Position numbers and translations under genes: made by a program. A stretch of 64,000 nt of DNA, taken from positions 62,001 through 126,000 of the forward strand of contig NZ_JAAIVJ010000001.1 in assembly GCF_011008935.1 (NCBI RefSeq), in the 5' to 3' direction. Numbering within the stretch: the stretch's first letter is position 1; every line of letters begins with the position of its first letter. The notes beneath the pieces are model-generated. The model did not search any database and was not told the DNA's origin. It saw only the letters and a list, made by a program, of their open reading frames with translations. Shown here piece after piece: positions 3,249 to 60,181 of the stretch. This stretch comes from Tabrizicola oligotrophica. Its GTDB lineage: Bacteria; Pseudomonadota; Alphaproteobacteria; Rhodobacterales; Rhodobacteraceae.

Positions 3249-3263
3249 CAGTGCCCGCAACGC

Positions 3264-3285: not shown

Positions 3286-3341
3286 CCGATGCCCTGCATC
3301 CCATGTCCGTTCCGGATCTGGCCGCTCCGGGCTAGCCCGTC

Positions 3342-4702: not shown

Positions 4703-4741
4703 CGCAGGCGGCAGGGGGAACCCGGAGCTGCGGCCTCCCGC

Positions 4742-4800
4742 CGGAGCGCCGGTGGCCAATGCCGGACGCTCCGCGGGGGATATTTTCACCAGTATGAAAG
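4742..4800 (+). repeat. Dispersed GATATTT motif copy 1 with upstream hairpin
   Basis: GGGGGATATTT-TCA-CCAGT-ATGAAAG spans 4775-4800 on the plus strand, ending two bases before the stop of the ABC ATPase gene (minus strand, convergent with slt). A 7-bp hairpin CGGAGCG/CGCTCCG (4742-4748, 4767-4773) lies just upstream, so the unit resembles a terminator for slt whose U-rich tract is ATATTTT. Other copies are near 6946, 13218, 32306, 46984, 59966 and 60108. Confidence 0.8.
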
Positions 4801-4802
4801 AC

Positions 4803-6890: not shown

Positions 6891-6921
6891 GGCGGGCCTC
6901 GCTTTGGTGGAGAGGTCGGGA

Positions 6922-6969
6922 CCGGGGGCCAGCCCCCGGACCCCCGGGATATTTGCAAACAGATGAAGG
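6922..6969 (+). repeat. Dispersed GATATTT motif copy 2 with GGGGG hairpin
   Basis: Intercistronic region between the DppC-like and ATPase genes. Stem CCGGGGG (6922-6928) / CCCCCGG (6933-6939), then GGGATATTT-GCA-AACAG-ATGAAGG (6946-6969), read on the plus strand. The ATGAAGG end abuts the stop of the permease gene (minus strand). The layout matches the ilvB-ilvH copy at 46984-47030 almost base for base. Confidence 0.8.
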
Positions 6970-6972
6970 GGA

Positions 6973-8136: not shown

Positions 8137-8146
8137 GTGTGATCCC

Positions 8147-9232: not shown

Positions 9233-9310
9233 GGCTGGTCCCGTCAGGGCAAACCGGGCGGGCCGCAGACGGGAGACCCGGCTGCACCGCTGGCGGTGTG
9301 GCTCAGAAGA

Positions 9311-9340
9311 AAGGGCGCGCGAGGGATGTCCCGCGCGCCC
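9311..9340 (-). terminator. Intercistronic hairpin between binding protein and permease genes
   Basis: On the minus strand, a perfect 9-bp stem GGGCGCGCG/CGCGCGCCC (plus 9313-9321, 9332-9340) with GGGA/TCCC extending it inside, followed by TTTCTTCTGAG. It is a partial terminator or 3' RNA stabiliser after the binding-protein gene, a common way of making much more binding protein than permease. Confidence 0.75.
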
Positions 9341-9363
9341 GATTTCAAGGTCGGATGCAGACC

Positions 9364-11013
9364 TCAGGCAGCGTCAACCCACCACTTGTAGTGGTGATGC
9401 TCGAAGGTGGCGTGCTTTTCGGCACCATGCACCTTCGGATCCGCATGGCGGAACAGCGAGCGCCAGTAGGGCTGCACCATCACGCCGGTGTCCTGCATGA
9501 TCTTCTCGATCTTCTCCATCACCACCTTGCGCGCCGCGGCGTCGTTGATCGACAGCGCTTCGGCAAGGGCCGCGTCAAAGTCCGGGTTCGCCATGGCGGT
9601 TTCGTTCCAGGCCTCGCCCGTGCGGTAGGCCAGCGCCAGAACCTGCACGCCAAGCGGGCGCATGTTCCATTCGGTGGCCGAGAACGGGTATTTGGTCCAG
9701 TCGTTCCAGAAGGTCGAGCCCGGCAGCACCGTGCGCTTGATCTTGATGCCGGCGTCGCGGATCTGGGCGGCGACCGCGTCGCTGGTTGCAGCCTGCCAGG
9801 CGTCGTCGAGCGAGATCAGTTCGAACTCGGTGTCGATCAGGCCGGCCGCCTCGATCCCGGCCTTGGCGGCCGCCGGATCGACGACCAGCGGCGGCAGGGC
9901 GAAGTATTCCGGGTGGATCGGGCAGACGTGGTGGTTTTCCGCAACCGTGCCGAGGTTGGAATAGCCAAGCTCCAGCACCACCTTGTTGTCCACGGCCTTG
10001 ATCAGCGCATTGCGGACTTCGGCCTTGGTGTAGGGCTCTTGCTGCTGGTTGAAGCGCAGGGCCAGCGTCGCCGAGGTGACGGCTTCGGACTTGGTCCAGC
10101 CCAAGGCGTCATACTGCGCGATGAAATCGCCGGTGGTCTGGTAGGTCGCGTCAATCTCGCCCGAGCCGGCGGCAGCCACCACGGCGGCGGGGTCGGTGCC
10201 GAAGTCGATGTATTCGATGCGGTCCAGATAGGGGCCGCCATAAACCGCGGTGCCCCACCACGGGTTCGGCGATTTCACCAGCACCTGCTTGACGCCCACT
10301 TCGTTCGTTTCCGGCATGTAGGGGCCGGTGCCGACCGGATTGGCCGAGGGGTCGCCGCCGTCATAGGCCGAATGCACGATCGCGGCCGGATAGTCGGCCA
10401 TGCCGACGATGATGGTGATGTCGGGCGCCGGCGTGACCAGCTTGACGGTGTAGTCATCGACCAGCGTGATCGCGCCATCGCGCGCGGTCTTGGTGTCGGG
10501 GTTGACGAGGCTGGCCATGCGGCCGGCCATCGAGTTGCCCTCGACATTGCCGTCGCACCAGCGGGTGATGTTGAACACCACGTCCTTGGCGGTGAAATCG
10601 TCGCCATTCGACCACTTCACGCCCTTGCGGACGTTCAGGGTGAACTCGGTGGCGTTGTCGTTCACGGTCCACGATTCCAGCAGCATGCCGCGGATCGAGC
10701 CGTCATTGTTGTATTCGACCAGATATTCCAGCCAGCCGCGGGAGAAGTTCGCCAGTTCCGACCAGTCGAAGGTGCGCGGGTCTTTCTGCGCCTTGGTTTC
10801 CATCGCCATGCGCAGCGTGCCGCCCATCGCGGGGGCGTCCTGTGCGGCGGCCGGGGCCTCAAGGCCCAGCAGGCCGTAAGCCGCGGCGGCCGAAACGCCG
10901 AGCGCGGTCGAGCGCACGAGGAATTCGCGGCGGCTGAGCGTGCCGTCACGGACCTCGGCGGCATACATCACCGCGCCCGGATGCAGCGTTTCGGTTTCAA
11001 ACGTGTCTTTCAT
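9364..11013 (-). CDS. Tat-exported peptide/solute-binding protein of the ABC transporter (SBP_bac_5)
   Basis: A 549-residue periplasmic family-5 binding protein. The ATG at 11011-11013 has a GGGAG ribosome site; further in-frame codons upstream lack one. An N-region of about 26 residues leads to the twin-arginine motif SRREFLVRS, a hydrophobic stretch [15 protein letters not shown] and a probable cut after APAAAQ. The mature protein shows the family pattern: [42 protein letters not shown] split over the first lobe, and a Pro-Tyr-rich C-terminus. Tat export suggests it folds in the cytoplasm first. The ligand is not predictable; peptides are the default for the family. Confidence 0.93.
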
Positions 11014-11415
11014 GCTTGTCTCCCTGTCAGGCTTTGCCTTGATTATTGACGAATGGTTGGACGTCGGGGGCCAATCTCCGATTGCGGTGCGGCATCCGCC
11101 ACCCCCATGCAGGCCGCCGTCTTGCGGGCGGTCTCTGCCGAAATGCGTGAGGAGTCTCTCCTTTGCTGCATCCGTGTCACCCCGGTATTCGGCACCTTTT
11201 CCGGCCATCCGTCAACGACAAGATTCGGCAATCAGTGTGCCGTATGCGACATTTTGACGGTCAAATTGTCGCTCGACACCCCTGTCGGGTTTTCCGCGGG
11301 AAATTCCGCTCCGTCGGAGGGAATTCCGTCAATGCGGAGAAACCGGGTGATTCTTTGCACCCGGTTGCGGGAAGGGCCCCGAGACTGGAAGATTCTGCGA
11401 TGCAGAAAGCGCCGG
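11014..11415 (-). promoter_or_regulatory. 402-bp control region between araC-type gene and ABC transporter
   Basis: No gene is visible. It contains several inverted repeats: TTTGAC-G-GTCAAA (11253-11265); a GGAAATTCC...GGAATTCC pair around 11301-11329; AACCGGGTG/CACCCGGTT with an 8-nt loop (11341-11366), followed on the minus strand by TTTCT; and TTCTGC-GAT-GCAGAA (11393-11407). The last two lie just after the AraC-type gene and could end its transcript; the first is well placed as an operator upstream of the binding-protein gene. No consensus promoter could be fixed. Confidence 0.5.
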
Positions 11416-12213
11416 TCAGAGCGAGCGGCGGAAGGCCGTCGGCGACACGCCGGTCATGTTCTGGAAAGCGCGGGTGAAATAGGCCGGCGAGTTGAAGCCG
11501 AGGCTCTCGCCGATGCGCCCCACCGGCGTATCGGTTTCCGACAACAGGCGCAGCGCCTCGAAGATGCGGCGGTCCTGCAGCAGGTCGATGGCCGAGCGGC
11601 CGCAGGTCTGGCGGCAGCAGCGCGTCAGATGGGTGGGCGTGACATCAAGCCGGGCCGCCATGTCCCCGACGCCAAGACCCTGCCGGAACTCGCGCTCCAT
11701 TAGCTGGGTGAAGCGCGCCACCAGCCGCCGGGCGGCATCGGGCGGCGCGGTTTCGGCGGCGGCCTTGACCGACTGCCGCTCCAGCCAGACCCCGAGCAGG
11801 CCCAGATAATGCCGCGTCGCCCGCTCATGCGCCGGGGTGGTGCTGTCCATCTCGCGCTGGATCATGTCGAGAATGACATTGACCTCTTGCTGGGCATGTA
11901 CCTCGCGGATGCGCAGGTGCTGGGGCTGGCTGGGCAGGGTGACCGTAGTGTCGCGGCCGAAAAACACAGCCGTACCAAAGACCTGCGGGCCGACTTCAAA
12001 GCCGTGCATCACGCCTGCCGGAATGTAGATCGCATTGTGCGCGGTATAGCCGCGGGTGACGCCCGCCACGGTGATGCGGCCCTGACCCTTGGTGAACCAC
12101 AGGAAGCAGGGTTCGCTCAGGGTGCGCATCGCCTCCACCCGCCAGCGGCCGGCGGCGGCAAGACGGGGCAGGGCAACAAGACGCATTTGCGAGGATTCGA
12201 TGGGGGCGTTCAT
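11416..12213 (-). CDS. AraC-family transcriptional regulator
   Basis: 265 residues from ATG 12211-12213 (MNAPIESSQMRLV). N-terminal cupin-like sensor (residues 10-150, with YTAHNAIYIPAGVMHGFEVG) and a C-terminal double helix-turn-helix (about 165-265): FRQGLGVGDMAARLDVTPTH and the conserved second motif GESLGFNSPAYFTRAFQNMTG followed by SPTAFRRSL. It stands directly upstream of the peptide-type ABC operon on the same strand, so it is the likely regulator of that transporter; the ligand is unknown. A possible earlier ATG at 12271 would add 20 basic residues and lacks support. Confidence 0.9.
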   Translation of the reverse strand: MNAPIESSQMRLVALPRLAAAGRWRVEAMRTLSEPCFLWFTKGQGRITVAGVTRGYTAHNAIYIPAGVMHGFEVGPQVFGTAVFFGRDTTVTLPSQPQHLRIREVHAQQEVNVILDMIQREMDSTTPAHERATRHYLGLLGVWLERQSVKAAAETAPPDAARRLVARFTQLMEREFRQGLGVGDMAARLDVTPTHLTRCCRQTCGRSAIDLLQDRRIFEALRLLSETDTPVGRIGESLGFNSPAYFTRAFQNMTGVSPTAFRRSL

Positions 12214-12354
12214 ACTGGCTCGTTTTTTTCTTTTGCGCGCAATCTGGCAGGCCTTCTCACGCAACCCAAGCAAAAAGATGGCGGCACGTGCCGAAAATCC
12301 GGTCCGGGCACGGAAAGGTTGTGGACAAATCTGTGGATTGTCTGTCCGCCCGCC

Positions 12355-13224
12355 TCAGCCGCAGGGGTGTTCGCGCCACCCCCCCATGCGTGAACGGAAC
12401 CAGGTGCGCTGGCGCTTGGCATAGCGGCGGCTTTGCAGGATTGCTGCCTCGACCGCCTCGGAAAGCGTCGATTTTCCCTGCAGATGGCCGATCAGCTCGG
12501 GTGCGCCGATGGCTTTGGACGAGGGCAGGCGCGGGTTCCAGTCCGGCAGGGCGGCCCGCGCCTCGTCCAGCGCGCCGGCCTCCAGCATGGCATGGAAGCG
12601 GCGGGCGATTCGGGCGTCCAGCCAGCCGACGTCCGGGCGCAGCACCAGCGCCTCGGCCTGCGCCAGGGCCAGCGCCGGGGCCGGCGTCTCGTCCTGCCAG
12701 GCGGCCAGGCCCCGGCCGGTGGCGCGCAGCACCTCCCAGGCGCGCTGGATGCGCGCGCCGTTCTGCCGGTCGATCCGGGCCGCCGTCGCGGCGTCAAGCT
12801 CGGCCAGCATCCCGCCGAAACCTTCGGCGGCCGCCCGTGCATCCGCCTCGGCCCGCACCGCGGCCGGCACGGCGGGAATATCGGCCAGCCCCTCGGTCAG
12901 CGCCGTGAAATTCAGCCCCGTGCCGCCGACGATCACCACCGGCCGGTCCAGCAGCGCCATCACCTCGCGCAGCCAGCGCCCGGTGGAATAGACCTCGCCG
13001 CGCCCGACATGGCCATAAAGCGCATGGGGCAGGGCAGTCTCGTCCTCCGGCGAAGGCCGCGCCGACAGCACGCGCCAGCAGTCATAGACCTGCAGCGCAT
13101 CGGCATTGACGATCACCCGCCCGTCGCGCGCGGCAATCTCCATTGCCAGCGCCGATTTGCCGCTGGCAGTCGGTCCGGCGATCAGCACCGGCGCCTCGCG
13201 CGAAATTCCGCTGATGCCTTTCAT
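12355..13224 (-). CDS. miaA: tRNA dimethylallyltransferase
   Basis: Adds a dimethylallyl group to N6 of A37 in tRNAs reading UNN codons. 289 residues, close to the family length of about 300. P-loop GPTASGKSA at 17-25, the [20 protein letters not shown] segment (the usual S/T-A-x-P motif), [17 protein letters not shown], and the C-terminal [18 protein letters not shown] that contacts tRNA. The start codon (13222-13224) lies inside a copy of the dispersed GATATTT motif, which lacks a good Shine-Dalgarno, so initiation may be weak or unusual. Confidence 0.96.
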
Positions 13225-13241
13225 ACTGGCCTAAATATCCC
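13218..13241 (-). repeat. Dispersed GATATTT motif copy 3, containing the miaA start codon
   Basis: Read on the minus strand: GGGATATTT-AGG-CCAGT-ATGAAAG. The ATG of ATGAAAG is the miaA initiator and AAAG its next bases. This is the only copy in the window whose conserved ATG begins a recognised gene. Confidence 0.8.
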
Positions 13242-13350
13242 GGCAGATTGCGGGCTGGCCCCGATCTGCCGTTTCCGCTGTTGAACCTGCCCCCGTTTTG
13301 CGACATTTTGCGGCGCAATCCAAGACACCACCCAGATGCAGGGAACTCCC

Positions 13351-14085
13351 ATGGCCAACACCGCCCCCACTTCCGGCGCGAAATATTCGCGCGTGATGCT
13401 GAAAATCTCGGGCGAGGCGCTGATGGGCGACCAAGGCTACGGCCTGCACCCGCCGACTGTCGCGCGCATCGCCGAAGAGGTGAAGTCGGTCCGCGACATG
13501 GGGGTCGAGGTCTGCATGGTGATCGGCGGCGGCAACATCTTCCGCGGTCTGGCCGGCTCGGCGCAGGGGATGGAGCGGACGACGGCCGACTACATGGGCA
13601 TGCTCGCCACGGTGATGAACGCCCTTGCCATGCAATCGGCGCTGGAGCAGATCGGGGTCTTTACCCGGGTGATTTCCGCCATCCCGATGGATCAGGTCTG
13701 CGAGCCCTACATCCGCCGCCGCGCCGTGCGCCATCTGGAGAAGAAGCGGGTCTGCATCTTCGCCGCCGGCACTGGCAACCCCTATTTCACCACCGACACG
13801 GCCGCCACGCTGCGCGCCTCGGAAATGGCCTGTCAGGCAATCTTCAAGGGCACCAAGGTGGACGGGGTCTATGACAAGGACCCCAAGAAACACGCCGACG
13901 CGGTGCGCTATGACCATGTGACCTATGACGAGGTGCTGCAAAAACACCTTGGTGTGATGGACGCCTCGGCCATTGCGCTGGCGCGCGACAACAACCTGCC
14001 GATCATCGTGTTCTCGCTGGATGAGCCCGGCGGGTTCAAGGGCATCCTCGCCGGCATGGGCACCTATACCCGCGTGCAGGATTGA
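13351..14085 (+). CDS. pyrH: UMP kinase
   Basis: Phosphorylates UMP to UDP in pyrimidine synthesis; a hexameric amino-acid-kinase-fold enzyme controlled by GTP and UTP in bacteria. 244 residues. Motifs: [15 protein letters not shown] near the N-terminus, [26 protein letters not shown], and [19 protein letters not shown]. The ATG at 13351 follows an AGGGA ribosome site, whereas the in-frame ATG at 13336 would overlap that site. First gene of the conserved pyrH-frr-uppS-cdsA-dxr-rseP-bamA run. Confidence 0.97.
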
Positions 14086-14245
14086 GCCCGGCACGCGCCC
14101 CTCACGGCTGCGCCCGCCGCAGGGCGCGTGAGTGCCGACCGGCAATATTCCCCGCAACGCCCCGGTTTATTTCCGCGCCCGCTTTCGCTAGAAGTGCGCA
14201 AACGGCCCGGTGCGACGCGGGCTGGACGACCTGAAGGAAGACCCC

Positions 14246-14809
14246 ATGTCCGACGATCTCGATATCGACCTCGATGCCATCCAGCGCCGGATGGATGGCG
14301 CAATGACCGCGCTGAAACAGGAATTCGCCTCGCTGCGCACCGGCCGCGCTTCGGCGGCGCTTGTCGAGCCGATCCATGTCGACGCCTATGGCCAGATGAC
14401 GCCGATCAACCAGCTTGGCACGGTGAACGTGCCCGAGCCGCGCATGGTCGTCATCAACGTCTGGGACAAGGCGATGATCGGCAAGGTGGAAAAGGCGATC
14501 CGCGAGTCGGGCATCGGCATCAATCCGGTGACCGACGGCCCGCTGATCCGCCTGCCGATCCCCGAGCTGAACGAGCAGCGCCGCAAGGAACTGACCAAGG
14601 TTGCCGCGCAATACGCCGAAAGCGCCAAGGTCGCCATCCGCAACGTGCGGCGCGATGGCATGGACCAGATCAAGAAGGCCAAGACCGCCGGCATGTCCGA
14701 GGACGACCAGAAGATGTGGTCGGACGAAGTGCAGGAAATGACCGACAAGCATGTCGCCGCCGTCGACAAGGCGCTTGAGGCCAAGCAGGCCGAGATCATG
14801 CAGATCTGA
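14246..14809 (+). CDS. frr: Ribosome recycling factor
   Basis: Splits the post-termination ribosome together with EF-G. 187 residues (family about 185). Start [18 protein letters not shown] has a GAAGGAAG ribosome site. Conserved blocks: [67 protein letters not shown] and [20 protein letters not shown]. The 160-bp gap after pyrH contains a 9-bp stem CACGCGCCC/GGGCGCGTG (14092-14100, 14122-14130) but no T-run, so partial termination at most. Confidence 0.97.
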
Positions 14810-14896
14810 CACGGTTGTCTTCGGGCGCATTGGCGCCCGCAGTATTGGGATTGAGTATTTTTTGCCCCTTCCGGGGCGCCGAGGGAAAGACCGGAC

Positions 14897-15625
14897 GTGG
14901 CCGCAGACAGCACCAGCCCCCGCAAGGCCGAACATGTCGCCATCATCATGGACGGCAACGGCCGCTGGGCCACCCAGCGCGGCTGGCCACGCCTTGTCGG
15001 TCATCGCAAGGGCGCCGAGCGGGTCAAGGAAATCGTCAACGCTGCCCCGGATCTGGGCGTCAAATACCTGACGATCTACGCCTTCTCGACCGAAAACTGG
15101 AAGCGCACCACCGAAGAAGTGCTGGGCCTGATGGCGATCTTCTCGCGCTATATCGAGCGCGAGGCCGACCGGATGGCGGCGGAATCGGTGCGGATGCGCT
15201 TCATCGGCGACCGTTCCATGCTGAACCCGCGGCTGCAGCGGCTGCAGACCTCGATCGAGAACCGCACCGCCACCTATGACCGGCTGCACCTGACGGTGGG
15301 CATCAATTACGGCGGCCGCGACGAGATCACCCGCGCCGTGCGCGACATCGCCCGCGCCGTGGCCGCCGGGCAGGTGGCGCCCGGCCAGATCACCGACGCG
15401 CTCATCTCGCAGCACCTCGACACGGCCGATCTGCCCGACCCCGATCTGGTGATCCGCACCTCGGGCGAGACGCGGACCTCGAACTTCCTGCCCTGGCAGG
15501 CGGCCTATGCCGAGTATGAATTCACCGACACGCTCTGGCCCGATTTCACCGCCGATCATCTGGCCGAGATCGTCGGCCGTTTCGGCAGCCGCGAACGCCG
15601 CTTCGGCGGGGTCGTGCCGGCATGA
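14897..15625 (+). CDS. uppS: Isoprenyl transferase (undecaprenyl diphosphate synthase)
   Basis: Cis-prenyltransferase building the C55 carrier lipid for peptidoglycan and lipopolysaccharide. 242 residues. Starts at GTG 14897 with GAGGGAAAG seven bases upstream. Catalytic Asp19 in IIMDGNGRWA; FSTENWKR; and the C-terminal substrate motif RTSGETRTSNFLPWQAAYAE. Its TGA overlaps the cdsA ATG as ATGA. Confidence 0.96.
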   Translation: MAADSTSPRKAEHVAIIMDGNGRWATQRGWPRLVGHRKGAERVKEIVNAAPDLGVKYLTIYAFSTENWKRTTEEVLGLMAIFSRYIEREADRMAAESVRMRFIGDRSMLNPRLQRLQTSIENRTATYDRLHLTVGINYGGRDEITRAVRDIARAVAAGQVAPGQITDALISQHLDTADLPDPDLVIRTSGETRTSNFLPWQAAYAEYEFTDTLWPDFTADHLAEIVGRFGSRERRFGGVVPA

Positions 15626-16410
15626 GCGCCGATTGGGGCGATCTCGGGCCGCGGGTCCTGTCGGGGCTGGGGATGATCCTTGTCGGCGGGCTTGCCGTCT
15701 GGGTGGGCGGGGCGCCTTTCGCGCTGCTGGTGGTGCTGGTAACCGGCGGGATGATGTGGGAACTGGCGCGCATGACCGCCGATCCCGCGCGCGACCTGTC
15801 GCTCTGGCTGGGCGCGCTGGCGGCCGGCATGCTGGCGCTCAACCTGTGGTCGGCCTCGCCCTGGCCGCTTGCCGCGCTGGCGCTGCCGGCCGTGGCGGGG
15901 GCCTTGCTGCCGCGCCGTGACCGGGCGGTGTTCTTTGCCTATGCCCTTGTCATCATGGCCACTGGCCTGTCGCTGGTCATCCTGCGGCAGTCGCTGGGGC
16001 TGGTGCCGGTGCTGTGGGTTCTGGCGGTGGTCGTCGCCTCGGATGTCTTGGGCTATTTCGCGGGGCGCAGCCTCGGCGGGCCGAAGTTCTGGCCGCGCGT
16101 CAGCCCGAAGAAGACCTGGTCCGGCACCGCCGCCGGCTGGGTCGGCGCGGCGCTGGTCGGGCTTGGCTTCTGGGCGGCGGGCCTTGGCACCAGCCATCTC
16201 CTCTGGGCCTCGCCCCTGCTGGCCTTTGCCGGGCAGATGGGCGACATTGCCGAAAGCGCGATCAAGCGGCGTGCGGGGGTGAAGGACAGCTCGCGCCTGA
16301 TCCCTGGCCATGGCGGGCTGCTGGACCGCTTCGACGGGCTGGCCTTCGCGGCGATCCTGAGCGTGCTGCTGCAGGTGGCGGTGCCGCTCTTTCCGCTGGT
16401 GAAGGGCTGA
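15622..16410 (+). CDS. cdsA: Phosphatidate cytidylyltransferase
   Basis: Integral membrane enzyme making CDP-diacylglycerol from phosphatidic acid and CTP, the branch point of phospholipid synthesis. 262 residues with about eight hydrophobic segments. The family signature is complete near the C-terminus: ESAIKRRAGVKDSSRLIPGH followed by GGLLDRFDG; SPKKTWSGTAAGW precedes it. Translationally coupled to uppS (4-bp overlap). Confidence 0.95.
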   Translation: MSADWGDLGPRVLSGLGMILVGGLAVWVGGAPFALLVVLVTGGMMWELARMTADPARDLSLWLGALAAGMLALNLWSASPWPLAALALPAVAGALLPRRDRAVFFAYALVIMATGLSLVILRQSLGLVPVLWVLAVVVASDVLGYFAGRSLGGPKFWPRVSPKKTWSGTAAGWVGAALVGLGFWAAGLGTSHLLWASPLLAFAGQMGDIAESAIKRRAGVKDSSRLIPGHGGLLDRFDGLAFAAILSVLLQVAVPLFPLVKG

Positions 16411-16424
16411 TCCGATGCGCCCGA

Positions 16425-16494
16425 CGCTCCTCGGCTGCCTTCGGCCCCTCGTCGCCGGCTCCCCGACGAGCGGCGAAGCCGACGAGGAGGTCCG
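16425..16494 (+). repeat. Palindromic repeat family R1, copy A (CTCGTCG type)
   Basis: A 70-bp imperfect palindrome just after cdsA: arms CTCCTCGG...CTTCGG...CTCGTCG and CGACGAG...CGAAG...CGACGAGGAG. Copy B at 36146-36213 shares the same modular arms. The interval 16411-16543 also ends with a sequence resembling the cdsA end (Leu-Lys-Gly-TGA in place of Val-Lys-Gly-TGA), as if the element was inserted with duplication of flanking DNA. Confidence 0.75.
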
Positions 16495-16543
16495 CGCCGG
16501 GGTGCCCTTCGTCACCGACCTTCCCGTCCTGAAAGGCTGACCC

Positions 16544-17725
16544 ATGCGGCGCATCTCGATCTTTGGCGCGACCGGCTCGATCGGGGAAAGCACCTATGAC
16601 CTGATCTGCCGGATGGGCGGGGCCGAGGCGGTCCGCACTGTCGCGCTGACCGGCGGCAACAATGTGGCGCGGCTGGCCGAAATGGCGCGCACCCTGCGGG
16701 CCGAGGTCGCGGTGACGGCGCATGAGGCCAACCTGCCGGCGCTGCGCGCGGCGCTGGCCGGTTCGGGTGTCCACGCCGCCGCCGGCCCCCACGCCCTCAT
16801 CGAGGCCGCCGACCGCGAGGCCGACTGGGTGATGTCGGCCATCGTCGGTGCTGCCGGTCTGGTGCCGGGGATGCGGGCCTTGGCGCATGGCAGCGCGCTG
16901 GCCCTGGCCAACAAGGAAAGCCTTGTGACGGCGGGCGAGCTTCTGCTGTCTACCGCCCGCGCGCATGGCGCCACCATCCTGCCGGTGGACTCCGAGCATT
17001 CCGCGATCTTTCAGGCGCTGGTGGGCGAGGATCTGACTGCCGTCGACCGGATCATCCTGACCGCCTCGGGCGGTGCCTTGCGCGACTGGCCGATGGAGCG
17101 GCTGGCCCATGCCACGCTGGCCGAGGCGCTGGCCCACCCCAACTGGTCGATGGGGCAGCGCATCACCATCGATTCCGCCTCAATGTTCAACAAGGCGCTG
17201 GAAGTCATCGAAACGCGCGAGTTCTTCGGGGTTCGCCCGGAGCAGATCGAGGTCATCATCCACCCCGAATCGATCATCCACTCCATGGTCGGCTTCAACG
17301 ACGGGGCGGTGATGGCGCATCTGGGCATGCCCGACATGCGCCACCCGATCGGCTATGCGCTGAACTGGCCCGAACGCCAGCCGCTGCCAGTGGCCCGGCT
17401 GGATCTGGCCGCCCTCGGACAGCTGACCTTCCGCGCCCCCGACGAAGCGCGCTATCCTGCGCTCAGGCTCGCGCGCGAGGTGATGGAGGTGCGCGGGCTG
17501 GCCGGGGCGGCTTTCAACGCCGCCAAGGAGATCGCGCTGGATCACTTCATCGCGGGCAGGCTTGGATTTCTGCAGATGGCTGCCTTGGTTGAAGAGACAT
17601 TGTCCCGGCTTTCGGCGGATTCCCGCCTTGGAATCGCCGCCGAGAGCCTTGAAGATGTGTTGGCAATGGACCATCTCGCCCGCATTCGTGCCGGTGAGGT
17701 GGCCCGGGAACTCGGGGGTGGCTAA
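16544..17725 (+). CDS. dxr: 1-deoxy-D-xylulose 5-phosphate reductoisomerase
   Basis: Second step of the MEP isoprenoid pathway, which supplies uppS and miaA substrates. 393 residues. NADPH motif GATGSIGEST near residue 8, ANKESLVTAGE, the metal/substrate block PVDSEHSAIFQ, TASGGALRDWP, and HPNWSMGQRITIDSASMFNK, then the VIIHPESIIHSMVGF segment. Cytoplasmic. The TAA is followed immediately by the rseP GTG. Confidence 0.97.
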   Translation: MRRISIFGATGSIGESTYDLICRMGGAEAVRTVALTGGNNVARLAEMARTLRAEVAVTAHEANLPALRAALAGSGVHAAAGPHALIEAADREADWVMSAIVGAAGLVPGMRALAHGSALALANKESLVTAGELLLSTARAHGATILPVDSEHSAIFQALVGEDLTAVDRIILTASGGALRDWPMERLAHATLAEALAHPNWSMGQRITIDSASMFNKALEVIETREFFGVRPEQIEVIIHPESIIHSMVGFNDGAVMAHLGMPDMRHPIGYALNWPERQPLPVARLDLAALGQLTFRAPDEARYPALRLAREVMEVRGLAGAAFNAAKEIALDHFIAGRLGFLQMAALVEETLSRLSADSRLGIAAESLEDVLAMDHLARIRAGEVARELGGG

Positions 17726-19078
17726 GTGGATTTCCTGACGACGATTCTGGGCACCGGCGGCCTGATGTGGACTCTGGTGTTCTTCATTCTTGCGCTGGGC
17801 ATCATCGTCTTTGTCCATGAATATGGCCATTACATCGTCGGTCGCCTGGCCGGCATCCATGCCGAGGTGTTCTCGCTGGGCCTTGGCCCGGTGCTGTTCT
17901 CGCGCTTCGATCAGCGCGGCACCCGTTGGCAGATCGCGCTCATCCCGATCGGCGGCTATGTGAAGTTCCTCGGCGATGCCGATGCGGCCTCGGGCCGGGA
18001 TGCCCATCTGATTGCCAGCCTGACCGACGAAGAGCGTCGCCACACCATGCACGGCGCGCCGCTCTGGGCGCGGACGGCGACCGTTGCGGCGGGGCCGGTG
18101 TTCAACTTCCTGCTCGCCATTGCCGTCTACTGGGGCCTGATCCTGTGGAGCGGGGTCGCCACCGACCGGCCCGTGGTCGGCACGGTGGCCACCCTGCCGG
18201 GGCTGGCCGACACGCTGCGGCCCGGTGATGAGGTTCTGGCGCTGAACGGCACGCCGACGCCTGATCTGGAAAGCTATCTCACCGTGGCGCGCGACCTGCC
18301 CGCCGCCGCCTTGGTGCGTTACCTGATCCTGCGCGACGGCGCGCAGACCGAGGTTTCCGCCCCGCATCCGATGCCGCCCTTGGTGGCCTCGGTGCAGCTC
18401 AAGTCCGCCGCCCTTGCTGCGGGCCTGCAGTCGGGTGACGTGATCCTTGCTGCGGCCGGCAAGCCCGTCACCGCCTTTTCCGAACTGCCGCCGATCGTCG
18501 AGGGGCTGGCCGGGGCGCCGGTGCCGCTGACCATCTGGCGGGCCGATGGCTCGGCCGCGGGCCAGACCTTTGACCTGACCATCACCCCCAACCGGCGCGA
18601 CATTCCGAAGGCCGAGGGCGGCTTTGAAACCCGCTGGCTGATCGGGCTTTCGGGCGGGCTGGTCTTTGAGCCCGAAGTGCGTCAGCCGGGGGTGTTCGAG
18701 GCGCTGAGCCTGGCGGTCCAGAACGGCTGGTTCGCGGCGACGACTTCGCTGTCGGGGCTGTGGCATGTGATCACCGGGGCGATCAGCTCGTGCAACATCT
18801 CAGGTCCGATCGGCATGGCGCAGGTGATGGGGCAGGCGGCGACGCTGGGGGCGGAATATTACATCACCATGCTGGCGGTGATGTCGCTGGGCATCGGCCT
18901 TATCAACCTGTTCCCGATTCCGGTGCTGGATGGCGGACATCTGGTATTCCACGCCTATGAGGCGGTGATGCGGCGCCCGCCGCCGGAAGGGGTACTGCGG
19001 GTTCTGATGACGATCGGGCTTTTCGTCGTGATCACCTTCATGGCCTATGCGCTGCGCAATGATGTAACCTGCGGTTGA
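17726..19078 (+). CDS. rseP: Site-2 zinc metalloprotease RseP
   Basis: Intramembrane protease that cleaves anti-sigma factors and leftover signal peptides. 450 residues. Zinc motif HEYGH (His31, Glu32, His35) in the first membrane helix; two PDZ-like regions between (around TVATLPGLADTLRPGDEVLALNG and VQLKSAALAAGLQSGDVILAA); the third ligand region NLFPIPVLDGGHLVF near the C-terminus. GTG start directly abuts the dxr stop, with GGGGGTGG as ribosome site. Confidence 0.95.
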   Translation: MDFLTTILGTGGLMWTLVFFILALGIIVFVHEYGHYIVGRLAGIHAEVFSLGLGPVLFSRFDQRGTRWQIALIPIGGYVKFLGDADAASGRDAHLIASLTDEERRHTMHGAPLWARTATVAAGPVFNFLLAIAVYWGLILWSGVATDRPVVGTVATLPGLADTLRPGDEVLALNGTPTPDLESYLTVARDLPAAALVRYLILRDGAQTEVSAPHPMPPLVASVQLKSAALAAGLQSGDVILAAAGKPVTAFSELPPIVEGLAGAPVPLTIWRADGSAAGQTFDLTITPNRRDIPKAEGGFETRWLIGLSGGLVFEPEVRQPGVFEALSLAVQNGWFAATTSLSGLWHVITGAISSCNISGPIGMAQVMGQAATLGAEYYITMLAVMSLGIGLINLFPIPVLDGGHLVFHAYEAVMRRPPPEGVLRVLMTIGLFVVITFMAYALRNDVTCG

Positions 19079-19165
19079 TCCGCCGTCCCTGCTTGCCCTG
19101 CCAAATTGCCGCCATAATCCGGTGGCAAGAAGGGGCATCGGAATCGCAGATCGGAGGGTAACAGG

Positions 19166-19303
19166 ATGGACGCGGTTGTGAGTGGCTACAAAGCCGTTTC
19201 GCTGCTGGTCTGGCTGAACGCCGACCGGCTCTTCACCCTTGGGACGGTCATTCTCGGGCTTCTGGCCGGGGCGTTTCTGGGCTCGGCGATCCTGCAGCCC
19301 TGA
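19166..19303 (+). CDS. 45-residue single-pass membrane protein of unknown function
   Basis: A small ORF with a good GGAGGG ribosome site, reading MDAVVSGYKAVSLLVWLNAD, then RLFTLGTVILGLLAGAF and LGSAILQP. The C-terminal half (about residues 22-42) is one hydrophobic helix; the N-terminal half is amphipathic. It lies between rseP and the bamA promoter. No family is recognised. Small membrane proteins often adjust a neighbouring membrane enzyme, and RseP is the obvious candidate, but that is only position. Confidence 0.6.
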   Translation: MDAVVSGYKAVSLLVWLNADRLFTLGTVILGLLAGAFLGSAILQP

Positions 19304-19374
19304 GGCGCTGGCGCCCGACCGGCCGGAATGGCCGGAAACTGGCGAAATGCCCATGTCCCTTGCGCCATGCCCTT

Positions 19375-19403
19375 TTGACAAGGCTTGCGGTTCAAGCTAG
19401 TCA
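19375..19403 (+). promoter_or_regulatory. Sigma-70-type promoter for bamA
   Basis: TTGACA (19375-19380), a 17-bp spacer, then TAGTCA (19398-19403). The predicted start of transcription, about 19410, leaves a leader of about 30 bases before the bamA ATG. This argues against the in-frame TTG at 19385 as the start of translation. Confidence 0.6.
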
Positions 19404-19438
19404 GGGACACAACAATTTGTGACACCCGGGGGCTGCGA

Positions 19439-21781
19439 ATGCGTATTTCTGCAAAGGCGATTGGGGCGCGCGGGCGCGTGGGGAACCGTGTTGTGCGCCC
19501 GGCCGCCATGGCGCTTCTGCTTTGCGGAACAGTCGTTTCCACGCCGTTCTTCACACCGGCCTTTGCGCAGGACTACAGCTTTTCCAACGTCGTGATCGAG
19601 GGCAATGACCGTGTCGATGCCGCGACCATCCTGTCCTATGCGGGAATCGGCAAGGGGCAGGCGCTGACCACCGGCCAGCTGAATGACGCCTACCAGCGCA
19701 TCGTGAATTCCGGCCTGTTCGAAACCGTGGAGCTGCAACCGCAGGGTGGCACGCTGAAGATCGTCGTGCAGGAAATGCCGATGCTGAACACGGTCGATCT
19801 GCAGGGCAACAAGCGGCTGAAGGATGACCGGCTTGCCGGGCTCATCAAGTCGAAATCGCGCAATGTCTTCAATCCGGCCACCGCCGAGGCTGACGCCGCG
19901 GCCATTGCCGATGCCTACCGGACCGAAGGCCGTCTGGCGGCCACGGTCACGCCGAAGCTGATCCGGCGCTCGGACAACCGGGTCGATCTGGTGTTCGAGA
20001 TTGTCGAGGGCAAGGTGGTCGAGGTGGAGCGGCTGTCCTTCGTCGGCAACCGCGCCTATTCCGACCGGCGGTTGCGGCAGGTGCTGGAAACCAAACAGGC
20101 CGGGTTGCTGCGCCAGATCATCGGGCGCGACACTTTCGTCACCGACCGGCTGGAGCTGGACAAGCAGCTGCTGAAGGATTTCTACCTGTCGCGCGGCTAC
20201 ATCGACGTCGAGGTGCTGGACGCCACGGGCGAGATTTCGGCCGAACGCGATGCCTCCTTCGTCACCGTCACCGTGCAGGAAGGCCAGCAATACCGCATTG
20301 GCGAGGTCTCCACCGTCTCTACCGTCGACGGCCTTGACGCCAATGAATTCATCGACGTGCAGAAGCTGCGCTCGGGCACGGTCTATTCGCCGGCGCTGAT
20401 CGAGAACAACATCGCCCGCATGGAGACGCTGGCCCTGAAGAAGGGCCTGAACTTCATCCGGGTCGAGCCGGTGGTGACGCGCAACGAGGCCAACCAGACG
20501 CTGGACATCGAATTTGTCCTGTCGAAGGGCGAGCGCGTCTTTGTCGAGCGCATCGACATCGAAGGCAACACCACGACGCTGGATCAGGTGATCCGCCGCC
20601 AGTTCCGCACCGCTGAAGGCGACCCCTTCAACCCGCGCGAAATCCGTCAGGCGGCCGAACGCATCCGCGCCCTTGGCTATTTCGGCAATGCCGATGTCGA
20701 GGCCGCGCCGGGCAGCGGCGGCGATCAGGTGGTGGTGAACGTCGATGTCGAGGAAAAGCCGACCGGGTCGCTGTCGGTCGGGGCGTCGTTCAGCGTGAAT
20801 TCGGGGGCCGGGCTGACCTTCGGCTTCAGCGAGGACAACTTCCTTGGCCGCGGCCAGAAGGTCGGGATCGACATCACCACCGGTTCCGACACCGTGGACA
20901 GCTCGCTCACCTTTGTCGAACCGTCGCTTCTGGGCCGCGATCTCAAGCTGAAATTCGGTGCCTATTACAAGACCAGCGATTACGCCGACGCCTTCTACGA
21001 CACCAAGCAGATTGCCATTTCCCCGGCGCTGGAATTCCCGGTCAGCGAATTTGGCCGTCTGGAACTGCGCTACCGCGTGTTCGACGACAAGATCACCAAT
21101 GTCGATGCCGATTCCTCTGCCGTTCTGGTGGCGGAAGAAGCGATGGGGTCGCCGCTGGGCAGCTCCATCGGGTATTCCTATTCCTACGACAACAAGATCG
21201 GCGGCCTGAACCCCAACAACCGCTTCCTGCTGCGCTTCAGCCAGGATCTCGCGGGCCTTGGCGGCGATGTGAAGTACCTCAAGACCGAGGCGCTGGCGCT
21301 TGCCGAAACCAAGATCCTGAACGAGGAAGTCACCCTGCGCGCTGTCGTCGAGGGGGGTGCGATTGCCACTTCGGGCGGCTACACCAGCCGCGTGACCGAC
21401 CGCTATTTCGGCAATGGCAAGATTCGCGGCTTTGAACCGAACGGCCTTGGCCCGCGTGACCTGACCGGCGTTGCGAACGAAGATGCGCTTGGCGGCAACA
21501 TGTTCGCCGTCGCCCGCTTCGAGGCCGATTTCCCGCTGGGCCTGCCGGAAGAATACGGCATCAAGGGCGGGGCCTTCCTGGACGTCGGCTCGGTCTGGGG
21601 GCTGGACAACACTCTGGGCGGCACGATCGACGATTCGGCCAAGCTGCGCTCGTCCATCGGTCTGTCGGTTCTGTGGGAAACGCCGCTTGGCCCCTTGCGC
21701 TTCAACTTCTCCAAGGCCTTGAAGAAAGAGGCTTATGACAAGGAACAGCGCTTCGACCTGACGATCACGACGAAGTTCTGA
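19439..21781 (+). CDS. bamA: Outer membrane protein assembly factor BamA
   Basis: Central beta-barrel of the outer-membrane protein insertion machine. 780 residues: a signal region ending FTPAFAQ-DYSFSN, five POTRA repeats (roughly residues 25-425, e.g. GNDRVDAATILSYAGIGKGQ and IEGNTTTLDQVIRRQFRTAEGDPFN), and a 16-strand barrel to the C-terminus. RGFEPNGLGPRDL is the conserved barrel motif (normally VRGF/Y) and LGPLRFNFSKAL...FDLTITTKF ends in an aromatic residue, the usual insertion signal. ATG 19439 is preferred over TTG 19385. TGA overlaps the skp ATG. Confidence 0.96.
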   Translation: MRISAKAIGARGRVGNRVVRPAAMALLLCGTVVSTPFFTPAFAQDYSFSNVVIEGNDRVDAATILSYAGIGKGQALTTGQLNDAYQRIVNSGLFETVELQPQGGTLKIVVQEMPMLNTVDLQGNKRLKDDRLAGLIKSKSRNVFNPATAEADAAAIADAYRTEGRLAATVTPKLIRRSDNRVDLVFEIVEGKVVEVERLSFVGNRAYSDRRLRQVLETKQAGLLRQIIGRDTFVTDRLELDKQLLKDFYLSRGYIDVEVLDATGEISAERDASFVTVTVQEGQQYRIGEVSTVSTVDGLDANEFIDVQKLRSGTVYSPALIENNIARMETLALKKGLNFIRVEPVVTRNEANQTLDIEFVLSKGERVFVERIDIEGNTTTLDQVIRRQFRTAEGDPFNPREIRQAAERIRALGYFGNADVEAAPGSGGDQVVVNVDVEEKPTGSLSVGASFSVNSGAGLTFGFSEDNFLGRGQKVGIDITTGSDTVDSSLTFVEPSLLGRDLKLKFGAYYKTSDYADAFYDTKQIAISPALEFPVSEFGRLELRYRVFDDKITNVDADSSAVLVAEEAMGSPLGSSIGYSYSYDNKIGGLNPNNRFLLRFSQDLAGLGGDVKYLKTEALALAETKILNEEVTLRAVVEGGAIATSGGYTSRVTDRYFGNGKIRGFEPNGLGPRDLTGVANEDALGGNMFAVARFEADFPLGLPEEYGIKGGAFLDVGSVWGLDNTLGGTIDDSAKLRSSIGLSVLWETPLGPLRFNFSKALKKEAYDKEQRFDLTITTKF

Positions 21782-28046: not shown

Positions 28047-32305
<4,259 letters not shown>

Positions 32306-32380
32306 CCCCTTCATCTGTTCGCAAATATCCCACGGGGGAAGCCGGATTGGCACAATCCGGCTTGGGGGTGTGAAACCCCC
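32306..32380 (-). repeat. Dispersed GATATTT motif copy 4 with two hairpins after recG
   Basis: Minus-strand motif GGGATATTT-GCG-AACAG-ATGAAGG occupies the first 26 bp after the recG stop (32306-32331). It is followed by a perfect 10-bp hairpin AAGCCGGATT/AATCCGGCTT (32339-32348, 32354-32363) and GGGGG/CCCCC (32364-32368, 32376-32380). No T-run follows, so it is not a textbook terminator. Confidence 0.75.
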
Positions 32381-46412: not shown

Positions 46413-46973
46413 TCAGACCCCGCGCGACAGCGCCGCCACCCCGGTCCGCGCCAGTTCGCGCAGGCCCAGGGGGCGCATCAGCTCGGCAAAGCTGTCGATC
46501 TTTTCCGGCGTGCCGGTCATCTCGAAGACAAAGCTTTCCAGCGTGCTGTCGACCACATGCGCCCGGAAGATCTCGGCCAGCCGCAAGGCCTCGATGCGGT
46601 GTTCGCCCTTGCCGGCGACCTTGAACAGCGCCAGTTCGCGCTGCACGCAGGGCCCCTCGGCGGTCAGGTCATGCACGTCATAGACCGAGACCATGCGGCC
46701 AAGCTGCGCCTCGACCTGGTCGATCACCGCCGGCGTGCCGCTCGTCACAATGGTGATGCGCGAGCGGTGCCCGGTATGGTCCACCTCGGCCACGGTCAGG
46801 CTGTCGATGTTGTAGCCGCGGGCCGAAAACAGCCCGATCACGCGGGCCAGCACGCCCGGCTCGTTCTCGACGATCACCGCCAGCGTATGGCTTTCCACCG
46901 CCTCGGAATGCGGATCGCGCAGGTCATAGGCGGAATGGCTGGTCGCGCCCTTCTTGATGTTCAGTGCGGACAT
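46413..46973 (-). CDS. ilvH: Acetolactate synthase small subunit
   Basis: Regulatory subunit giving valine feedback control to IlvB. 186 residues: ACT domain (about 28-100, SHTLAVIVENEPGVLARVIG and LFSARGYNIDSLTVAEVDH) and a C-terminal domain ending ARTGVAALSRGV. The AGAGGA ribosome site lies directly after the GATATTT motif. Confidence 0.97.
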   Translation of the reverse strand: MSALNIKKGATSHSAYDLRDPHSEAVESHTLAVIVENEPGVLARVIGLFSARGYNIDSLTVAEVDHTGHRSRITIVTSGTPAVIDQVEAQLGRMVSVYDVHDLTAEGPCVQRELALFKVAGKGEHRIEALRLAEIFRAHVVDSTLESFVFEMTGTPEKIDSFAELMRPLGLRELARTGVAALSRGV

Positions 46974-46983
46974 CTTTGGTCCT

Positions 46984-47030
46984 CTTTCATCTGTTCATAA
47001 ATATCCCGGGGGCGCGGGGGCTGGCCCCCG
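46984..47030 (-). repeat. Dispersed GATATTT motif copy 5 in the ilvB-ilvH gap
   Basis: Minus strand: hairpin CGGGGG-CCAG-CCCCCG (47015-47030), then GGGATATTT-ATG-AACAG-ATGAAAG (46984-47007), running straight into the ilvH ribosome site. Same hairpin-plus-motif layout as 6922-6969. It sits inside an operon, so it must be read through. Confidence 0.8.
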
Positions 47031-47040
47031 CTCCGCCTGA

Positions 47041-48795
47041 TTACACCAGCACCGCGCCTGCGGCCTTGATGACGCCTTGCGTCTCGGCATTGCCCAGAAG
47101 CATCTCGTTATGCGGCTTGCCCGACGGGATCATCGGGAAGCAGTTCTCGTGCTTCTCGACAAGGCAGTCGAAGATCACCGGGCCGTCATAGCGCAGCATC
47201 TCCAGAATGGCGTCGTCGAGATCCTTGGGGTCGGCGCATTTGATGCCCTTGCAGCCGAAGGCCTCGGCCAGTTTCACGAAATCGGGCAGGCTTTCGGACC
47301 AGGACGAGGAATAGCGCTCGCCATGCAGCAGTTCCTGCCACTGCCGCACCATGCCAAGCCGTTCGTTGTTCAGGATGAACTGCTTGACCGGTGCGCGGAA
47401 CTGCATCGCGGTGCCCATTTCCTGCATGTTCATCAGCCACGACGCCTCGCCGGCGACGTTGATGACCAGTGCGTCCGGATGGGCGATCTGCACCCCGATC
47501 GAGGCCGGCAGGCCATAGCCCATGGTGCCAAGCCCGCCCGAGGTCATCCAGCGGTTCGGCGCGTCAAAGCCGAGGAACTGCGCCGCCCACATCTGGTGCT
47601 GGCCAACCTCGGTGGTGATGTAGCGGTCCATGCCCTTGGTCAGCGCCTCAAGCCGCTCCAGCGCGTATTGCGGCTTGATGGTCTTGTCCGAGGGCTTGTA
47701 GGACAGGCATTTCACCGCCCGCCATTCGTTGATCTGCTTCCACCACTTCGCCAGACCGTCCTTGTTCACCTTGCGGCCGCGCGCCTTCCAGATCCGCAGC
47801 GCGTCTTCCAGCACATGGCCGACATCGCCGACGATGCCCAGATCGACGCGGATCACCTTGTTGATCGAGGAGGGGTCGATGTCGACATGCACCTTCTTCG
47901 AGCGCGGGCTGAAATCGGCGATGCGCCCGGTGATGCGGTCGTCAAAGCGCGCGCCGATGTTCAGCATCAGGTCGCAGTCGTGCATGGCAAGGTTGGCCTC
48001 GTAAAGCCCGTGCATCCCCAGCATGCCGATCCATTTGTCGCCGCTCGCCGGATAGGCGCCAAGGCCCATCAGCGTCGAGGTGATCGGAAAGCCCGTGGCC
48101 TCGACGAATTCGCGCAGGAGCTGGCTGGCCGCCACGCCCGAATTGATGACGCCGCCGCCGGTGTAGAACAGCGGCCGCTCGGCGGTTTCCAGCATCTCGA
48201 CCATGCGGGTGATGGCCTCGATGTCGCCCTTCACCCGCGGCTGGTAATGGTCCACGCGGGCCTTCGGCGCCGGGGTATACTCCGCGGTGGCGAACTGCAC
48301 ATCCTTCGGAATGTCGACCAGCACCGGGCCGGGGCGGCCCGACTTGGCGACGTGGAAGGCCTGATGAATCACTTCCGACAGCCGGGCGGTGTCCTTCACC
48401 AGCCAGTTGTGCTTGGTGCAGGGCCGGGTGATGCCCACCGTGTCGGCCTCCTGAAAGCCATCGGTGCCGATCATGAAGGTCGGAACCTGACCCGACAGCA
48501 CGACGATCGGAATGGAATCCAGCAGCGCATCGGTCAGCCCGGTGACGGCATTGGTCGCGCCGGGGCCAGAGGTCACCAGCGCCACGCCGACCTTGCCGGT
48601 CGAGCGGGCATAGCCCTCGGCCATGTGGATGGCGCCCTGTTCGTGGCGCACCAGAACGTGCCGGATGTCGTTTTGCTGGAAGATCTCGTCATAGATCGGC
48701 AGCACCGCGCCGCCCGGATAGCCGAAGACGACATCCACGCCCTGATCCTTCAGGGCCTGAACCACCATCCTCGCGCCGGTCATCGCCTTGGTCAT
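47041..48795 (-). CDS. ilvB: Acetolactate synthase large subunit
   Basis: ThDP/FAD enzyme for the first common step of valine, leucine and isoleucine synthesis. 584 residues from ATG 48793-48795 (GAGGAAAG upstream). VFGYPGGAVLPIYDE, RHEQGAIHMAEGYAR (catalytic Glu), TSGPGATNAVTGL, and the ThDP region VAGEASWLMNMQEMGTA...ILNNERLGMVRQW. The usual Asp of the GDxS motif is Glu450 here, a conservative change of a metal ligand. Controlled by the upstream leader-peptide attenuator. Confidence 0.97.
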   Translation of the reverse strand: MTKAMTGARMVVQALKDQGVDVVFGYPGGAVLPIYDEIFQQNDIRHVLVRHEQGAIHMAEGYARSTGKVGVALVTSGPGATNAVTGLTDALLDSIPIVVLSGQVPTFMIGTDGFQEADTVGITRPCTKHNWLVKDTARLSEVIHQAFHVAKSGRPGPVLVDIPKDVQFATAEYTPAPKARVDHYQPRVKGDIEAITRMVEMLETAERPLFYTGGGVINSGVAASQLLREFVEATGFPITSTLMGLGAYPASGDKWIGMLGMHGLYEANLAMHDCDLMLNIGARFDDRITGRIADFSPRSKKVHVDIDPSSINKVIRVDLGIVGDVGHVLEDALRIWKARGRKVNKDGLAKWWKQINEWRAVKCLSYKPSDKTIKPQYALERLEALTKGMDRYITTEVGQHQMWAAQFLGFDAPNRWMTSGGLGTMGYGLPASIGVQIAHPDALVINVAGEASWLMNMQEMGTAMQFRAPVKQFILNNERLGMVRQWQELLHGERYSSSWSESLPDFVKLAEAFGCKGIKCADPKDLDDAILEMLRYDGPVIFDCLVEKHENCFPMIPSGKPHNEMLLGNAETQGVIKAAGAVLV

Positions 48796-59908: not shown

Positions 59909-59965
59909 CGGCAGGCTCCTGTGTCTGCGCCCGGATCGCGGGCGGAATCGGTCGGAGCCTCCGGC

Positions 59966-60132
59966 GGGGATATTTGCGCCAGTATGAAAGGGCCAGTCGG
60001 GACACCCCTGCCTCGGGCCGGAACACCGGGGGAGGCAGGGGGCCTTTCACACTGGACGGTCATCGGCGTCCCCGCCTGTACCGTGAGGTGATCCTGACCG
60101 GAAAACCCTTTCATACTGGTTAAAATATCCCC
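59966..60132. repeat. Inverted pair of GATATTT motifs (copies 6 and 7) between edd and eda
   Basis: GGGGATATTT-GCG-CCAGT-ATGAAAG on the plus strand (59966-59990) faces GGGGATATTT-TAA-CCAGT-ATGAAAG on the minus strand (60108-60132), 117 bp apart. The ends could pair as a long stem. Between them is GCCTCGGGCCGG...CCGGGGGAGGC-type DNA (60012-60045), and a further CTTTCACACTGG (60045-60056) looks like a decayed third copy. Confidence 0.8.
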
Positions 60133-60181
60133 GCCGGAGGCGAGAAAGGTTTCGGGCCGGGGCAGGGCGCGCGGCGGGGCA

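Follow-up and report, generated by a model that had tools for sequence, protein, structure and literature searches.

The motif that recurs at gene boundaries in the Tabrizicola oligotrophica window (the whole stretch of 64,000 nucleotides that was analysed, C1:62001-126000 of a 3.85-Mb genome in 62 contigs) is the 3′ part of a scattered, structured intergenic element of ∼40-75 bp. Its plan is [structured GC-rich module]-GG(A/G)TATTT-N3-[10-12 nt tail]. Three features favour a REP-like element that works at the level of DNA: the copies are polar to GC skew, some form inverted doublets, and their tail dialects extend over the genome. Our tentative reading, to which we give a probability of about 0.42, is a REP-like, replication-polar DNA element that is read by a putative co-evolving factor; the function is one that we infer.

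The first-pass annotation had listed seven copies of the motif in the window, and all of them were recovered at the same positions and on the same strands, every copy exact. A search with ATATTT-N8-ATGAA at up to one mismatch gave 7 matches in the window, all exact (0.07 expected). The full 20-base form GGATATTTNNNCCAGTATGAAAG at up to three mismatches returned only the 4 exact type A copies (0 in shuffles), i.e., no near-miss of the full type A motif is present in the window at this threshold. Copy 1 (4739-4800, + strand) is of the two-armed class b, in which CGCCGGAGCG (4739-4748) and CGCTCCGCGGGGG (4767-4779) precede ATATTT, the N3 TCA and the type A tail CCAGTATGAAAG; its gap is convergent, between called genes 4072-4683 (+) and 4803-6890 (-). 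Copy 2 (6922-6969, +), of class d, consists of the hairpin CCGGGGG-CCAG-CCCCCGG (6922-6939), a third tract CCCCC, GGG-ATATTT, N3 GCA and the type B tail AACAGATGAAGG, and is flanked by two - strand genes, to both of which the motif is antisense. In copy 3 (13218-13270, -) the hairpin GGCAGAT...ATCTGCC (13242-13270) adjoins GGGATATTT, followed by N3 AGG and a type A tail; it lies in a divergent gap (one of 4 such copies in this genome), and its tail overlaps the called start of gene 12355-13224 (-). Copy 4 (32306-32380, -), of class e, stands directly behind called gene 30221-32305 (+) and carries the G-run/C-run hairpin GGGGGTTTCACACCCCC (32364-32380), a second hairpin (32339-32363), the third tract CCCCC, GTGGG-ATATTT, N3 GCG and a type B tail. 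Copy 5 (46984-47031, -) is again of class d, with hairpin GCGGGGG-CCAG-CCCCCGC (47014-47031), third tract CCCCC, GGG-ATATTT, N3 ATG and type B AACAGATGAAAG; it is located between called genes 47041-48795 (-) and 46413-46973 (-), the tail being 12 bp ahead of the next called start codon. Copies 6 (59954-59990, +; GGAGCCTCCGGCGGGG-ATATTT, N3 GCG) and 7 (60108-60141, -; GCCTCCGGCGGGG-ATATTT, N3 TAA) are single-arm class a copies with type A tails. Together they make a convergent pair, which two other genomes (L164 and L198) have kept at the orthologous position, with an identical N3 TAA in copy 7.

The hairpins mentioned in the first-pass annotation are mostly as described. CGGAGCG/CGCTCCG is present at copy 1 (4739-4748/4767-4779, +), and of the two copies said to share CCGGGGG/CCCCCGG around the loop CCAG, copy 2 reads so and copy 5 has GCGGGGG/CCCCCGC around the same loop. 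What had been overlooked is that the element includes the hairpin, that its tail differs by lineage, and that there is a third tract. No Rfam family matched at the motif copies; the sole match in the window was Cis52_sRNA (RF02647, Ruegeria cis52 sRNA) at 8392-8570 (+), with 119.5 bits, antisense in called gene 8147-9232 (-).

In the whole genome, GGGATATTTN8ATGAA (GGGATATTT-N8-ATGAA) occurs in 64 copies and its reversed-pattern control in 0, and the looser GATATTTN{4,20}ATGAA occurs 101 times (control 0), with the 8-base spacing in nearly all matches listed. We aligned 95 copies found by ATATTTN8ATGAA. GG precedes ATATTT in 95/95 of them, most loci having been preselected with a pattern that required one or more of these G; N3 is variable, with a purine as its third base in 96%. 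The two proposed types of second half were borne out by the alignment: 62 copies carry type A (CCAG(T/C)ATGAAAG or the CCAAT form CCAATATGAA) and 33 carry the AACAG type B (AACAGATGAA), the dialect tails of this genome being CCAGTATGAAAG and AACAGATGAAGG. The placement at gene boundaries also held, with 94/95 copies intergenic and 1 inside a called gene by our own gene calls; the motif is in excess over shuffled DNA, and it is not equally present in coding DNA. The left modules fall into several classes: (a) GCCTCCGGCGGGG and (b) CGCTCCGCGGGGG, each of which occurs either singly or in a long palindrome with two arms; (c) CCGGGGGTTTCACACCCCCGGACCCCCGTGGG; (d) CCGGGGGCCAGCCCCCGGACCCCCGGG; (e) a variant of this plan in which a second hairpin is interposed; (f) a stem formed by CAATGG...CCAATG; and (g) modules without obvious structure. 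In a loose classing, 13/97 copies showed no obvious left structure. The sequence CTCCGGCGGGG is followed by ATATTT at 30/30 distinct places among the loci, a slightly looser form giving one exception. Some of the loci read form inverted doublets in which the hairpin is shared or two hairpins face each other, and in two-armed copies one side often bears a degenerate tail, e.g., CCAGTCTGAA or CCAATGTGAA. The tail CCAGTATGAAAG alone has 58 occurrences in the genome, and the 2 that were absent from the earlier list are also elements, one with a mutated core. No tRNA was detected in the 60 of 90 loci scanned. Elements are clustered at G000:C1:559019-568376 (four in 9 kb, all -) and C2:221594-226501 (three in 5 kb, all +); the surrounding genes, judged by eye, code for metabolic enzymes and regulators, with no obvious transposase.

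A hairpin plus third tract with mirror symmetry is present in classes c-e only. In these classes the C-tract before the core equals the hairpin run in length in 81/103 copies, counting copies with both tract and hairpin (16 more are without such a hairpin); shuffling gave 43, with a maximum of 59. In hairpins with an A in the purine arm, the third tract has the sequence of that arm's non-reversed complement. Among the 296 family genomes, the arm GGGGAGG is followed by CCCCTCC at 27/28 places, and GGAGGGG by CCTCCCC at 81/88 among the matches listed, the search pattern having admitted both answers and two others. Of the 7 exceptions among the 88, 5 coincide in part with a further match of the list, in most cases one that reads this very hairpin on the opposite strand. 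These 116 places were counted by the arm and tract pattern alone, the core not being part of the count; the core follows the third tract in the copies read (e.g., L145, L155, L206, L213, L242, L259, and L039 and L080 of this genome). Watson-Crick pairing of the third tract was considered and rejected. An automatic score over all arms had found the mirror better in 24/73 and the repeat better in 49/73; on reading, none of those 49 has an A inside a purine arm, so they cannot distinguish the models, and only the GGGGAGG/GGAGGGG arms were then counted. A tract that is the non-reversed complement of the arm cannot be explained by antiparallel pairing but can be by a third strand that runs parallel to this arm or, on the other strand, by the purine-motif triplex. 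The third tract bears the signature of a possible intrastrand triplex. Since C+ triplets are unlikely at neutral pH, any triplex would more plausibly be of the purine motif on the complementary strand. The covariation of arm and tract across bacterial genomes provides evidence from evolution that such an intrastrand triplex is under selection. The TMECO study is reported to have obtained no support for a triplex that folds stably in vivo (PMC4666352).

The first-pass annotation mentioned similar sequences in other Rhodobacteraceae, correctly as the family-genome searches show. The stereotyped 17-base left half CTCCGGCGGGGATATTT is common to 157/296 family genomes and was found in 0/141 genomes of other alphaproteobacterial families; the class-wide search covered 144 genomes, of which the only positive one was the genome under study. 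The core form GGATATTTN8ANGAA is present in 186/296 family genomes, with up to 181 copies (G186), and GGGTATTTN8AWGAA in 87/296; by a hand count of the tables, roughly 125/296 genomes hold at least 5 copies of one of these two forms. In relatives, the core and N3 remain recognisable and the tail is lineage-specific. After N3 we read GCAAAATGAA in G012, CCAAAATGAA in G024, GACAGATGAA in G031, CCAGAAAGAA in G317, GCGAAAAGAA in G197, CGACAATGAA in G189, RACACATRATGG in G090, AGCAAAAGATG in G118 and AACAAAAGAA in G186. Named carriers of the dialect of the present genome include Tabrizicola, Pseudorhodobacter, Fuscibacter oryzae and Stagnihabitans tardus. Plasmids carry variants of the element as well, among them those of Cereibacter sphaeroides, Ruegeria sp. 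TM1040 and Paracoccus; three out of 25 plasmid records (two from Parabacteroides and one from Bacillus) appear to be half-matches due to chance. The search of phages gave no match to the element. A strand bias in G197, suggested by the matches listed, proved to be a listing effect, as the fetched stretches hold further copies in the opposite orientation.

Orthologous gaps were recognised by their flanking genes. In near genera an automatic test found the core kept on the same strand in 23/37 orthologous gaps, on the opposite strand only in 4, and in neither orientation in 10. At some kept sites the hairpin class and the tail type are exchanged: one site (L045, L195, L204, L217, L096) has type B in this genome, type A in three near-genus genomes and the G012 tail in G012, all in equal orientation, and in the L018 group a class d module here corresponds to class a in three genomes. 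In the congener G001 the flanking proteins are mostly 86-97% identical to those of this genome (two at 70-75%). There, 11/14 copies read carry the core GGGTATTT with the tail CCAAGATGAA, and the counts of the two core forms are 15 and 57, against 96 and 1 in the genome under study. Nine of our sites were located in 400 kb of G001. The automatic test scored 7/9 as absent, its pattern missing the altered forms; in the printed pairs read, 7 still have an element in equal orientation, and in 5 cases its dialect or form has changed (four GGGTATTT...CCAAGATGAA, one ATGTTT...AACAGATGAA). The two gaps truly without the element (counterparts of L035 and L079) have a hairpin and a T-rich stretch instead. 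Between L067 and its G001 counterpart L261, the middle between two facing cores is inverted and the flanks are not, hinting at inversion between facing copies or at template switching. No clean empty site with target duplication was seen at the orthologous places compared, and such high retention is unusual for a freely jumping element. The G001 tail CCAAGATGAA is also found in three other genera (G066, G142, G025), so dialects may spread or recur across lineages.

We then compared the orientation of the elements with transcription and with GC skew. By our own gene calls, the 207 copies of this genome and the near genera lie in 154 same-direction, 42 convergent and 8 divergent gaps, with 3 inside called genes. 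A null of 205 gaps from 400 kb of G001 gave 127, 24 and 54, respectively. Divergent gaps, which bear promoters, are thus avoided (8/204 vs. 54/205) and convergent gaps are enriched (42/204 vs. 24/205). Within same-direction gaps the motif is sense in 83 and antisense in 71 copies, i.e., random to transcription, which upholds the earlier doubt about a simple promoter or terminator. Orientation that does not follow transcription argues against an RNA signal or a one-way terminator; of the three options originally offered, the RNA motif is disfavoured by it, and a protein site and a small mobile palindrome both remain. In window positions 1-20000 we found no excess of canonical hairpin and T-run terminators (7 found, 12 expected from shuffles), a result that raises the question of how transcription ends in this genome.

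Orientation follows GC skew instead. The flanking GC skew, read in the direction of the motif, is positive for 76/96 copies of this genome and 90/116 near copies, and an offset remains after correction for gene direction (intercept 0.041, s.e. 0.005). Classes c-f, balanced in their own G and C, are the most polar (48/53 own, 36/41 near), and elements with an own skew of zero or less are still positive in 30/38 and 22/27; the composition of the element is thereby ruled out as the cause. Polarity of classes a/b is weak in this genome (18/30) and reversed in the 4/4 a/b copies read in G147. In G012, assembled as one 3.56-Mb contig, 57/64 copies follow two arcs (28/31 and 29/33) with breakpoints that were picked post hoc, after seeing the data; GC skew had the sign expected for the arc in 11/12 fetched blocks, and it switches between arcs. 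Unlike in G012, no long arcs of uniform orientation were found on the draft contigs of the genome under study.

These observations bear on several other explanations. A Rhodobacteraceae-type transcription terminator or 3′-end insulator would use the hairpin or hairpin-triplex with AUAUUU as a weak U-tract, the tail aiding release and the structured module working both ways. It stays alive because of the position of the elements at gene 3′ ends (divergent gaps avoided, convergent ones enriched) and the two exchanged sites in G001, and the lack of excess of canonical terminators in window positions 1-20000 also speaks for it. We nevertheless consider it unlikely: the elements are random to transcription yet polar to GC skew, 28/83 sense copies in same-direction gaps are within 30 bp of the next called start, and the lineage-specific tail sits past the supposed release point. 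By eye, a hairpin directly before the T-containing core is seen in classes c-e and in two-armed copies, and many class a and all class g copies are without a strong stem there. A related E. coli triplex motif is reported to be without terminator activity (PMC4666352). The skew polarity and the two G012 arcs would suit a polar replication or chromosome-organising site, comparable to KOPS or a fork-pause site, that is read by a motor or fork protein and is intergenic because it is long. The polarity extends over this genome and near genera beyond the composition of the element, and triplex or hairpin structures can impede polymerases. We rate such a site as quite improbable, given merely tens to about 180 copies per genome, similar copies on plasmids and chromids, and 110/296 family genomes without the GGATATTTN8ANGAA form (other forms are possible there); moreover, core and tail have been rewritten throughout the genome between close relatives, and an essential segregation signal would pay a high price for such a change.

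A short fixed sequence with lineage dialects, an intergenic preference and concerted change in most copies also recalls a DNA uptake or self-recognition sequence kept by molecular drive, like the DUS of Neisseriaceae, and the inverted pairs resemble those in DUS terminators (PMC1852404). However, there are about 100 copies per genome and not at least 1,000, the window holds no near-miss copies, unlike the expectation for drive-kept sequences, and the structured left modules would be left unexplained. Replication polarity is not known from DUS, and we hold this explanation to be very unlikely. Least plausible is an RNA-guided or RNA-level tag, in which the tail would pair with a trans-acting RNA or act as a 3′ UTR signal, and to which we give very little credence. 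An arbitrary, T-poor tail of 10-12 nt is what a guide would read, but the exact 12-mer is confined to elements on both strands of this genome, so there is no fully complementary guide, and almost half of the copies in same-direction gaps are antisense to both neighbours. A guide RNA was accordingly rejected: beyond the elements of this genome, the tail recurs neither as such nor as its full complement. An RNA hairpin between core and tail (AUAUU/AGUAU, found by eye) was rejected, the pairing not being kept in other dialects, as was ATGAA as a start codon or coding signal, other dialects having AAGAA or no such triplet.

We therefore return to the REP-like element with a dedicated reader. The extragenic structure, inverted doublets, lineage-specific sequence, concerted change, replication polarity and absence of RAYT led us to propose a REP-like element with another reader. 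Rewriting of one part of the element per lineage, in nearly all copies at once, suggests on sequence grounds a factor that reads it. The element would act like one of the REP/REPIN type, with core plus tail as the recognition sequence of a putative lineage-specific, trans-acting DNA-binding or DNA-processing factor, of which at least two specificities (A and B) would operate in this genome. The left module (a hairpin, a two-armed palindrome, or a hairpin with a possible triplex tract) would supply a non-B DNA structure beside the recognition site; this structure probably becomes accessible at the replication fork, while one of the strands is single-stranded. Such a factor would act on DNA and not on RNA, and single-stranded DNA at the fork would matter to it. 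No trans factor was found. The REP transposase Y1_Tnp (PF01797) has 0 matches in this genome and is absent from 265/296 family genomes (present in 31), and RAYT was accordingly rejected as the reader. The elements may be selfish, useful or both, and they may have been put to use as gene-end insulators. A wider version, which we regard as doubtful, is a family-wide DNA 'address' system of dozens to more than 100 replication-polar hairpin/triplex and tail elements with a fast-evolving, non-RAYT reader, in which a change of specificity is followed by concerted rewriting at the same positions; the dialects of close relatives would then differ, and the reader of one could not use those of another. 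The rewriting of dozens of sites in concert between close relatives points to a recognition system for which we found no described match in Rhodobacteraceae, a family that includes the laboratory models Cereibacter sphaeroides, Ruegeria and Paracoccus. The dialects offer a handle for finding the reader, which should change when the dialect changes.

We found no description of the element in the open-access literature, most subscription papers lying outside that scope. REP, BIME and REPIN sequences are short structured extragenic repeats near gene ends, present in tens to hundreds, with inverted doublets and lineage-specific sequence. Our element resembles the REP/RAYT system as a dispersed, extragenic palindromic repeat with doublets and lineage-specific sequence, but the genome has no Y1 transposase. 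The foot of REP is of the GTAG type and lies next to the hairpin; in our aligned copies GG-ATATTT comes after the hairpin and no conserved foot precedes it. The conserved ATATTT-N3-tail, the several unrelated left modules, the intrastrand-triplex type and the strong GC-skew polarity are further differences from REP. The PIT/TMECO motifs of E. coli and other bacteria are the closest to the third-tract class, being intergenic, G/C-rich purine-motif triplexes with a 3-nt linker and tens of copies per genome (PMC4666352). In the elements described here, the third tract lies at the opposite side of the hairpin, the sequence of the arm varies and the tract co-varies with it, the module is joined to ATATTT-N3-tail, and the triplex classes are interchangeable with non-triplex modules. 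TMECO is reported to have no strand bias, no terminator activity and no proof of folding in vivo (PMC4666352), whereas the orientation of our element follows GC skew. DUS/USS sequences share the lineage-specific short sequence that changes in concert genome-wide and the inverted pairs at gene ends (PMC1852404); they differ in having about 10-fold more copies (∼1,000 or more per genome, compared with 101 loose matches here and up to 181 in G186), and our element adds a structured left module, replication polarity and the absence of near-misses in the window. With Rho-independent terminators it may share, in classes c-e and two-armed copies as judged by eye, a GC-rich hairpin that precedes a short stretch with T at the 3′ ends of genes. 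Intrinsic terminators are oriented with the upstream gene; here orientation is random (+M+ 83 vs. -M- 71, among the 207 copies), a tail extends past the T stretch, and a 17-base left half recurs in 157/296 genomes. The HRC-8-4 motif is likewise a terminator-like stem-loop restricted to Rhodobacterales, but it is described as a candidate cis-regulatory RNA located for the most part in the cco region (PMC8632094), whereas the element described here is a dispersed, dialect-bearing repeat.
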